From positions 1-31,640 of IMG/VR virus record IMGVR_UViG_3300027963_000026: a stretch of 31,640 bases of DNA. The stretch is one strand, 5' to 3'. The position numbers were made by a program, and so were the translations under genes. This DNA comes from a virus. A model generated the notes under the pieces. It did not search any database. It was not told where the DNA came from and saw only the letters and a list, made by a program, of their open reading frames with translations. Positions 29,045-31,640 of this stretch are shown here, piece after piece (within the stretch, counting starts at the first letter, position 1; each line of letters opens with the position of its first letter).

Positions 29045-29435
29045 AATTAAGTTTACAGAGGATTATCGTTGGAGCTTAGCATTTGAAGCTATTAATGAGT
29101 TGACTGGAGCAACCCCGAACGCACTACGACGTGCAAGTAGGGTAACTCCTCTTCCTGCTTCGAGAATGATAATTTCTTATGTGATGTATAAAGAGTTGTA
29201 TATGACTCCCGAATACATTTCGCATCAACTTAACAAGGATAGGACAGCAATTTATTTTTATGTAAAGGTAATGGACGAGTATAAGGATAAAACTCCTTAC
29301 AAAGAATATTACGAGGCTTACAGAGAATTATTTTATAGGAAGATAACCTTGCTTGGATATGTTTGCACTTGTTGTGGAGCATTAGAACCAGCGATTAAAG
29401 GAGATAAATTTTTAAAACCAAAGACAAATGAATAA
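28998..29435 (+). CDS. DnaA domain IV-like DNA-binding protein with Cys-rich end
   Basis: A 145-residue protein. Its middle (ASRMIISYVMYKELYMTPEY, then ISHQLNKDRTAIYFYVK at about 73-89) follows the helix-turn-helix of DnaA domain IV, where R-DHT-V becomes KDRTAI. It lacks an ATPase. The end carries YVCTCCGALEP (residues 121-131), possibly metal-binding. It overlaps the SSB-like gene by 47 bases; ATG 29004 is an alternative start. Its stop lies within a 21-bp direct repeat that flanks the next gene. It may bind DnaA-box-like sites or the origin. Confidence 0.75.
   Translation: MTMLKANKKTTTSLSKIKFTEDYRWSLAFEAINELTGATPNALRRASRVTPLPASRMIISYVMYKELYMTPEYISHQLNKDRTAIYFYVKVMDEYKDKTPYKEYYEAYRELFYRKITLLGYVCTCCGALEPAIKGDKFLKPKTNE
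29412..29432 (+). repeat. 21-bp direct repeat, left copy
   Basis: Starts TTAAAACC and ends CAAATGAA; identical to 30058-30078. It contains the end of the DnaA-like gene and the ATG of the adenine methyltransferase. Confidence 0.9.
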
Positions 29436-30084
29436 TATTTTAATTAATGGAGATTTCAGAGATTATGAATATCCTAAAGGTATAACTATTACAGACCCTC
29501 CATATAATCAAAACTACCATTATAGTAATTATAAAGACAATTTAAAAAAAGATGAATATTTATTATTATTATCTTCAATAAAAAAACCTTGCGTTATTAT
29601 ACACTATCCAGAGGAAACTATAAATTTACTTCCTAATATTTTTGGAAAATGTGAGCAAGTTGTTTCTTGGGTTTATAATTCTAATACAGGTAAACAACAT
29701 AGGCTTATTTCTTGGTGGGGTTGTAAACCAGATTTTTCTAAATTGACACAACCTTATAAAAATCCAAATGATAAAAGGGTAAAAAAATTGATTGAATCTG
29801 GTAGAAGTGGTGCTAAATTATATGATTGGTGGGAGATACAGCAAATTAAAAATGTTAGTAAAGAAAAAACAGAGCATCCTTGTCAAATACCAGAAGAGGT
29901 TATTAAAAGAATTTTATTGACAACAGTAAATAAAGATGAAACAGTAATAGACCCATTTTCTGGAAGTGGAACTGTTTTAAAAGTATGTAATGATTATGGA
30001 TATAATTCAATAGGATATGAAATTGATAGTAAATATTGTGATATAATTAAACAAAGATTAAAACCAAAGACAAATGAAATTTAG
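29428..30084 (+). CDS. DNA adenine methyltransferase (class beta)
   Basis: A 218-residue S-adenosylmethionine-dependent methyltransferase of the N6-adenine/N4-cytosine group. The catalytic motif IV is DPPY at 23-26, and the cofactor motif DPFSGSGT is at 175-182. This order, catalytic motif first, defines class beta. KTEHPCQIPEEVIKRIL (147-163) is also typical. It modifies phage or host DNA, probably against restriction. The gene is more AT-rich than its neighbours and is bounded by a perfect 21-bp direct repeat, so it looks like a mobile cassette placed between two DnaA-like genes. The recognition site cannot be read from sequence alone. Confidence 0.92.
   Translation: MNNILINGDFRDYEYPKGITITDPPYNQNYHYSNYKDNLKKDEYLLLLSSIKKPCVIIHYPEETINLLPNIFGKCEQVVSWVYNSNTGKQHRLISWWGCKPDFSKLTQPYKNPNDKRVKKLIESGRSGAKLYDWWEIQQIKNVSKEKTEHPCQIPEEVIKRILLTTVNKDETVIDPFSGSGTVLKVCNDYGYNSIGYEIDSKYCDIIKQRLKPKTNEI
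30058..30078 (+). repeat. 21-bp direct repeat, right copy
   Basis: Identical to 29412-29432. It spans the last codons of the methyltransferase and the ATG (30074) of the following gene, so both copies place an ATG and a K-P-K-T-N-E reading at the same point. Confidence 0.9.
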
Positions 30085-30438: not shown

Positions 30439-31065
30439 ATGAGTGGCTATTATTATACCCTACCGGCAGATATTTTTTATGACAAAAAGTTATCGGTAAA
30501 CGCTAAACTATTGTTTTGCCTAATAGCCAATTTTTGTAATAAGTATGGGAAATGCTATGTAAGTAATAAGCACTTGGGAGAAACTTTGGATAGGTCGGAA
30601 TCTACCATTTCTCGGCTTGTTTCAGAGCTTGTAGAAGCAGGTTATTTGAACTCAATAGTAGATAAAAACGATAGCAATAAACGCACTCTTACCCTATACG
30701 CAAAAATGCCTATACCTATACGCAAAAATGAGGATACCTATACGCAAAAATGCGAAGATAATAATACTATATATAATACTACTAAACTTAATATATTCAA
30801 AGAGGTAATTTCTTATTTAAACGAGAAGGCAAATACAAACTTTAAAGAAAGTAATAAAGCCAACCAAAGAATGATAAGTGCAAGGATGGATGAAGGCCAT
30901 ACATTAGAAGATTTTAAAACAGTAGTTGATAATATGGTTGCTAAATGGAAAGGAACAGAATGGGAACAATATTTAAGACCACAAACTTTATTCCAAGCAA
31001 GTAAATTCGAAAATTATCTTAACTTTGTAAAACAAGAACCTAAAACCAATAAAATTATAATATGA
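30439..31065 (+). CDS. Lambda-O-like replication initiator
   Basis: A 208-residue two-domain protein. Residues 1-85 are a winged helix-turn-helix (DKKLSVNAKLLFCLIANFCN, then LGETLDRSESTISRLVSELV). A linker at 86-115 is encoded by the iteron cluster. Residues 120-195 form the phage C-terminal domain (VISYLNEKANTNFKESNKAN, then ARMDEGHTLEDFKTVVDN and QYLRPQTLFQASKFENYLN) known from phage replisome organisers. It should bind the iterons in its own gene, melt the adjacent AT-rich segment and load the phage DnaB. Its stop overlaps the methyltransferase start as ATGA. Confidence 0.9.
   Translation: MSGYYYTLPADIFYDKKLSVNAKLLFCLIANFCNKYGKCYVSNKHLGETLDRSESTISRLVSELVEAGYLNSIVDKNDSNKRTLTLYAKMPIPIRKNEDTYTQKCEDNNTIYNTTKLNIFKEVISYLNEKANTNFKESNKANQRMISARMDEGHTLEDFKTVVDNMVAKWKGTEWEQYLRPQTLFQASKFENYLNFVKQEPKTNKIII
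30693..30752. repeat. Three 22-bp iterons, probable replication origin
   Basis: CCTATACGCAAAAATG occurs without error at 30693, 30715 and 30737, a period of exactly 22 bases. Since 22 is not a multiple of 3, the copies are read in three different frames (YAKM, IRKN, TQKC), so DNA and not protein is under selection. An AT-rich stretch (30758-30805) follows and could be the melting site. This matches the layout of ori within lambda O. Confidence 0.85.
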
Positions 31066-31640
31066 AACACGGATCACTTTTTTCAGGTATCGGAGGATTT
31101 GAACTTGCTGCCCAGTGGATGGGATGGGATAATATTTTCCATTGCGAGTGGAACGAGTTCGGACAAAAAGTATTAAAATATCATTTCCCTAAATCAATAA
31201 GTTATGCAGACATTACAAAAACAGATTTCTCTATTCACAGAGAAACAATTGACATTCTCACAGGAGGATTCCCTTGCCAACCATACTCAACAGCAGGAAA
31301 AAGGCTTGGAAAAGAAGACGAACGCCATCTATGGCCCGAAATGTTACGAGCAATTCGAGAGATTAAACCACGTTGGATTGTGGGCGAAAACGTACTCGGA
31401 CTTATTAATTGGTCAGAAGGGTTGGTATTCGAAGAGGTGCAATCTGACTTGGAAGCTGAAGGGTACGAAGTACAACCGTATGTACTTCCAGCTGCAAGCG
31501 TTGGTGCACCCCACAAAAGAGATAGGGTTTGGTTCGTTGCCCACTCCGACAGCATCGGATTGGAAGGGGGGATGTACGAGAGCGGGAGAGAACGCAAAGT
31601 TTCAAGACAGTATGCTACAACATTACATCCACGCAAGACA
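31062..31640 (+). CDS. dcm: C5 cytosine DNA methyltransferase, 5' part (continues at window start)
   Basis: N-terminal 193 codons of the 260-residue methyltransferase whose end is at 1-331. Visible motifs: I (SLFSGIGGFELAA at 4-16), IV with the catalytic Cys (GGFPCQPYSTAGK), VI (GENVLGL) and VIII (KRDRVWFVA). The ATG overlaps the initiator stop by 4 bases. The cytosine is held by the ENV motif and attacked by the Cys of PCQ. The gene is interrupted only because the circular genome was opened here. From codon 48 on it also contains a long open +1 frame. Confidence 0.95.
   Translation, partial: MKHGSLFSGIGGFELAAQWMGWDNIFHCEWNEFGQKVLKYHFPKSISYADITKTDFSIHRETIDILTGGFPCQPYSTAGKRLGKEDERHLWPEMLRAIREIKPRWIVGENVLGLINWSEGLVFEEVQSDLEAEGYEVQPYVLPAASVGAPHKRDRVWFVAHSDSIGLEGGMYESGRERKVSRQYATTLHPRKT
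31204..31640 (+). CDS. Overprinted +1-frame protein within dcm (5' part)
   Basis: The +1 frame is open from 31201 onward, and its first ATG is 31204. Stops lie just upstream (31174, 31198). The translation starts MQTLQKQISLFTEKQLTFSQ and continues NAIYGPKCYEQFERLNHVGL, WAKTYSDLLIGQKGWYSKRC and NLTWKLKGTKYNRMYFQLQ. This reads as structured sequence with many Trp, Tyr and Cys. I recall closely similar stretches in proteins of Bacteroidetes phages, but that was not checked. The frame continues across the circular junction to 539. No strong ribosome-binding signal is visible, so translation could be coupled to or shifted from the methyltransferase. Confidence 0.5.
   Translation, partial: MQTLQKQISLFTEKQLTFSQEDSLANHTQQQEKGLEKKTNAIYGPKCYEQFERLNHVGLWAKTYSDLLIGQKGWYSKRCNLTWKLKGTKYNRMYFQLQALVHPTKEIGFGSLPTPTASDWKGGCTRAGENAKFQDSMLQHYIHAR
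31514..31640. repeat. 127-bp terminal overlap, identical to 1-127
   Basis: The last 127 bases repeat the first 127 exactly. The length and the fact that a gene reads through it point to assembly overlap of a circular or circularly permuted genome, not a biological terminal repeat. True genome length is 31,513 bp. Confidence 0.9.

Follow-up and report, generated by a model that had tools for sequence, protein, structure and literature searches.

In M.EcoHK31I, the small gene is reportedly nested within the large one, in a different reading frame. M.EcoHK31I (YGGCCR; Lee, Kam and Shaw 1995) is a two-polypeptide cytosine-5 methyltransferase whose large subunit carries motifs I–VIII and X, motif IX being found only in the small subunit (PMC3404938). 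Single-chain enzymes such as M.HhaI and E. coli Dcm keep motif IX and the TRD together in one polypeptide and one frame, and enzymes of the M.AquI type have motifs IX and X in the small subunit.

The phage locus analysed here resembles M.EcoHK31I in layout and motifs, its dcm gene (hereafter alpha) carrying motifs I–VIII and X and an open reading frame in the +1 frame inside dcm (hereafter beta) carrying motif IX. It differs from M.EcoHK31I in that the pair is phage-borne, no restriction enzyme was recognised nearby and the beta stop codon has been lost in this phage. In the literature, the large subunit of M.EcoHK31I is predicted to contain the TRD; here the TRD would lie mainly in beta, the corresponding stretch of alpha being predicted to be disordered. 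The class itself is not new, M.EcoHK31I dating from 1995 and an 'internal gene' having been noted in some phages; its spread and under-annotation are what deserve attention. In the open-access literature we found no description of such an overlap in phages or of its spread, and what did turn up was limited to mentions of EcoHK31I and the 'Mte8' label.

Layout of the two frames in a circular phage contig

The window, that is, the whole stretch of 31,640 nucleotides that was analysed (IMG/VR record IMGVR_UViG_3300027963_000026), is one circular phage contig with an exact 127-bp terminal repeat (31514–31640 = 1–127), position 31513 joining to position 1. Its gene content includes terminase, portal, tail, ERF, YqaJ exonuclease, N6/N4 methyltransferase, replication initiator and DnaB genes. 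The second DNA methyltransferase (PF01555, N6/N4 type) is located at 29428–30084, about 1 kb upstream of dcm and near the ERF/YqaJ recombination genes.

All features of the dcm locus are on the + strand. Joined across the junction, alpha extends from 31062 to 331 and encodes 260 aa; its 5′ part (frame 0) is located at 31062–31640 and its 3′ part at 1–331, with the stop codon at 329–331. PF00145 matches residues 1–168 of the product (E=1.3e-45). Beta begins in the +1 frame relative to alpha at its own ATG (31204–31206), occupies 31204–31640 and continues after the junction as SLPTPTASDWKGGCTRAGENAKF...KTSQLSPQFIMEMMGFPPDWT up to a stop codon at 539, giving 282 aa on the joined sequence. An earlier sequence-only reading had described this frame as open from ATG 31204 through the circular junction to 539, overlapping about 213 dcm codons, and the joined sequence confirms it. 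The protein-like blocks quoted in that reading are present in the +1 translation, and the contrast in GC content that it noticed (about 48% against near 30%) also stands, with 0.456 in the overlap and 0.278 at 303–539 (0.336 for the whole window), the figure of 48% being slightly high.

The same reading treated the 282 codons as one protein, and we found no support for this length as a conserved product. The conserved beta product comprises about 190–204 residues, ending in ...EETQSSHK followed by a stop in one homologous locus (L009) and in ...EVTQ followed by a stop in another (L089). In the window, the 3′ part of this conserved product is located at 1–302, to about residue 193–204, as placed by an alignment with 77 homologs; this is where homologs stop. 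Beyond the beta stop, L089 harbours a 78-aa gene whose start is the equivalent of ATG 303 and whose product is 46% identical to that of the window ORF at 303–539, a separate gene that shares the beta frame. The beta stop is absent from the window (region 237–539) and from an identical contig (L008/L088). The 282-codon frame is therefore due to the loss of this stop, which lets beta run into the separate 78-aa gene; judging from the uninterrupted frame, it is possible that the two are made as a 282-aa fusion. The 78-aa gene shows a weak match to phrog_21480 (E=0.05).

Distribution of methyltransferase motifs between alpha and beta

Motifs I, IV, VI, VIII and X are all carried by alpha in frame 0, which agrees with the earlier assignment of IV, VI, VIII and X to the dcm frame. 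Motif X (GGNAIVPQVA) is encoded at 245–274, so that the M.AquI-type feature, motif X in the small subunit, was not found here. No MGFP-type motif IX is present in the alpha translation. Sequence comparison with M.HhaI gave a match over residues 5–169 of alpha, covering motifs I–VIII only (E=7e-23). The AlphaFold2 model of alpha consists of the large domain, a disordered stretch (residues 167–202) and a C-terminal helix (residues 239–255) bearing motif X; Foldseek aligned it with M.HhaI (E=1.4e-14) over about 180 columns of this 327-residue protein.

Motif IX is found only in beta, at 150–200 (QLSPQFIMEMMGFPPDW). When beta was compared with ten single-chain enzymes by hhalign, the one local match obtained was motif IX exactly (E=0.0099, 22 columns, with a probability of only 4%). 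Its position relative to motif X is canonical: the distance from the MG of beta to the GN of alpha is 22.7 codons, and the corresponding distance is 20–24 codons in 11 of 13 single-chain enzymes and 30 in the other two. The pair thus shares with M.HhaI and E. coli Dcm the same catalytic domain and the same IX-to-X spacing.

Beta belongs to phrog_1008 ('DNA methyltransferase'; E=6e-20 over residues 14–127, plus a second stretch), and the similar entries labelled as methyltransferases that the sequence-only reading had mentioned are therefore real. Members of this family include Paenibacillus phage Lily gp63 ('g62 internal gene'), E. coli phage K1ind1 ORF28 ('Mte8-like') and C-terminal methyltransferase genes of mycobacteriophages. 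Lily gp63 and K1ind1 ORF28 also overlap a cytosine methylase gene from inside, in the +1 frame; lengths, LPTP module numbers and host phyla differ between beta and the other members. In the mycobacteriophages Charm (gp80/gp79) and Severus (gp77/gp76), as in the window, alpha carries motifs I–VIII and a +1 gene carries LPTP and motif IX (L376:1174–2200 and L377:1183–2176). However, their layout is M.AquI-like: alpha ends past motif VIII and the +1 gene contains the TRD, IX and also X, whereas the window keeps X in alpha. Beta matches Charm gp79 by hhalign (E=1.6e-6). Since LPTP, IX and X are on one chain in the Charm and Severus +1 genes, this match connects beta with the C-terminal methyltransferase half.

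The region of beta preceding motif IX is variable (24–149 in the window, beginning with an LPTPTASD module at 24–47) and probably target-recognising. In most members it contains one to five LPTP..D-type modules, and beta length rises with their number, as if tandem duplication of recognition modules had taken place in the hidden frame.

It is very likely, in our view, that alpha and beta are the two polypeptides of a split, M.EcoHK31I-type cytosine-5 DNA methyltransferase, produced from overlapping genes. Alpha would provide the SAM-binding, catalytic large domain with motifs I–VIII, and motif X past the disordered stretch. Beta, starting at its own ATG inside alpha, would contribute the variable portion of the small domain together with motif IX. 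We infer that the two chains associate, completing the small domain and giving one active enzyme in which beta recognises the target, and that this enzyme methylates the phage DNA. It would most likely be an orphan methyltransferase that shields the phage from host restriction; of the genes examined, none was recognised as coding for a restriction enzyme. No natural alpha–beta fusion that could have been modelled as a complex was present among the loci searched. One candidate (L183) was rejected because that part of the metagenome assembly is duplicated and filled with Ns.

Alternatively, beta could be a real overprinted protein with a job unrelated to methylation, for example a small regulator or an anti-restriction protein. 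Beta indeed has no Pfam or NCBIfam match and no confident fold when modelled alone. The AlphaFold2 model (78 homologs) reached a pLDDT of 53.6, with only a hairpin at residues 80–100 and a few helices modelled. The sole confident part is this conserved hairpin block, CNLTW...YFQL (31438–31494; pLDDT 88–89), which includes the invariant residues C79, W83, R92 and L97. A Foldseek search of the PDB with the beta model gave no meaningful structural match, and searches of PDB sequences with the beta profile and with motif IX alone gave nothing relevant. This poor lone model is compatible with a subunit that depends on its partner, yet it is not evidence for one. Against an unrelated job stand the motif IX match and its spacing to motif X, the lack of this motif in alpha, the homology to the mycobacteriophage genes and the constant co-occurrence of beta with alpha, and we consider such a job improbable.

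Selection on both frames and maintenance of the beta start codon

An ATG for beta could be located close to its predicted position in 150 of 156 loci. We had expected one fixed codon, and it occurs at either of two neighbouring codons. At the pyrimidine-ending alpha codon that must end in T to provide the beta ATG, we counted 111 T and 2 C, against a background of 123 to 173 (p=7e-31). The beta ATG is therefore maintained through synonymous choice in alpha.

This result bears on a possible programmed ribosomal frameshift from alpha, which the sequence-only reading had offered as a second option. Such a frameshift would produce an alternate C-terminus with the TRD and motif IX, with no separate initiation, and would account for the presence of motif IX in the +1 frame exactly at its single-chain position. 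It would leave the active maintenance of the ATG aside, however, and the conservation of beta begins in its N-terminal half, far upstream of motif IX. In addition, the beta frame contains a TAA one codon 5′ of ATG 31204 in the window, and a +1 stop usually within about 10 codons upstream of the ATG in homologs. A frameshift would therefore be confined to a tiny window, and we give this explanation an even slimmer chance than an unrelated job for beta.

The third codon position of alpha is the second position of beta, so that a synonymous third-position change in alpha almost always alters a beta residue. Among 138 non-redundant alpha genes, pair identity of the third base at four-fold dcm sites was 0.73 inside the overlap and 0.41 outside (p=8e-9), and 26 invariant four-fold site classes were found inside the overlap versus none outside. 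In 329 close pairs, the fastest-evolving position was the third position of alpha both before beta (0.254) and after beta (0.360). In the motif IX block, the fastest was the third position of beta (0.201, versus 0.082 and 0.091 for the two others), and the DNA there therefore evolves as a beta gene. Along the gene, the codon-position signature thus passes from alpha-type to mixed, then to beta-type at motif IX, and back to alpha-type; the variable region shows no clear alpha codon signature.

The openness of the +1 frame was evaluated in 80 homologous loci gathered by the dcm protein only, so that the +1 frame played no role in their choice. It was open in all 80, with a mean of 222 codons against 87 expected from synonymous codon shuffling (highest single p, 0.02). 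The window dcm has 213 open +1 codons against 81 expected, a length reached by none of 200 synonymous shuffles. The +2 frame of the 80 homologs is as open as expected (39 codons versus 43), and the three reverse frames are also near expectation. This answers the earlier caution that length alone is no proof, a reverse frame being open in the window too: across the family the reverse frames behave as expected, unlike the +1 frame. None of 13 single-chain cytosine-5 methyltransferases had a +1 frame significantly above expectation. Openness by itself is nevertheless not proof, because the single-chain enzyme of Streptococcus phage CHPC1148 (L378:1201–2064) has a +1 run of 141 codons against 64 expected.

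The view that the open frame merely follows from the sequence of the dcm protein and the base composition, without yielding a second product, could draw on this enzyme and on the longish +1 runs that alpha residues alone permit. It can practically be discounted in view of the synonymous shuffles in the 80 homologs, the frozen four-fold sites, the maintained ATG and the free-standing beta copies described below. The +1 stops in homologous dcm genes, or the lack of conservation beyond that forced by dcm, which had been proposed as signs against a true overlapping gene, were looked for and neither was found. Beta is a true overlapping gene with both frames under selection, as the sequence-only reading had suggested.

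An ordinary single-chain dcm split by indels, or by an assembly or sequencing error, would explain why motifs IX and X are in different frames of an ORF that spans the contig junction. This has almost no chance of being correct, given that the independent identical contig (L008/L088) has the same sequence with no junction there, and that alpha and beta overlap solely in the +1 relation in 241 of 244 loci, a layout recurring in many samples as well as in cultured phages and bacterial genomes. An out-of-frame homing endonuclease in the style of the ShiLan domain offers a similar setting, that domain too being concealed within a phage methylase gene in another frame (PMC11855218). It is scarcely credible here: ShiLan inserts as a mobile element and codes for a nuclease, whereas beta has no match to HNH or other nucleases in Pfam, PHROGs, NCBIfam or PADLOC and is a fixed overlap over conserved catalytic motifs, found in nearly all homologs and not sporadically.

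Spread of the pair and free-standing beta copies

Two beta queries matched 61 and 229 phage records, respectively, and among the matches listed most records carry a single methyltransferase annotation. Beta matches were also found in plasmids and in many Bacteroidota genomes. Beta is a real protein, conserved in hundreds of related phages and rarely annotated there. With a single methyltransferase annotated, half of the enzyme is absent from annotation and from specificity prediction. The missing half is probably the one that sets specificity, and alpha expressed alone from such genes may yield an inactive enzyme.

A broader generalisation, to which we give even chances, is that a large class of phage 'dcm' genes, from Bacteroidota, Bacillota, Pseudomonadota and cyanobacterial elements, consists of alpha/beta pairs. 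The DNA from motif VIII to motif X would then be mainly a beta gene, and it is the hidden frame that would encode target recognition and in which it would be repeated and exchanged; the alpha reading of this DNA would be a passive linker, and some hosts would keep an extra beta as an alternative specificity subunit.

INDEPENDENCE from alpha is seen in two bacterial genomes, Edaphocola (L231) and Bacteroidetes 43-16 (L238), where alpha is directly followed by an extra beta that no alpha frame overlaps. These third genes (L231:3812–4396 and L238:3999–4565) are intact and devoid of the first 50 residues or so. The two copies are 51% identical, with pN of 0.37 versus pS of 0.75 and the third position evolving fastest, which indicates purifying selection. 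We conclude that beta is an independent protein, and the free-standing paralog is possibly an alternative specificity subunit. A further candidate for a solo beta (L366) was rejected, as alpha reads over it.

With both products conserved, the start codon kept, free-standing copies and a clear functional idea, beta is a very well supported overlapping gene of phages. With the extra beta of these two genomes and the different split in mycobacteriophages, the origin of this arrangement can be tested directly.

As a separate observation, an Anabaena plasmid (L169:1–2898) carries an annotated 'hypothetical protein' in which beta is extended in frame by a long C-terminal stretch, the overlapping alpha being unannotated.
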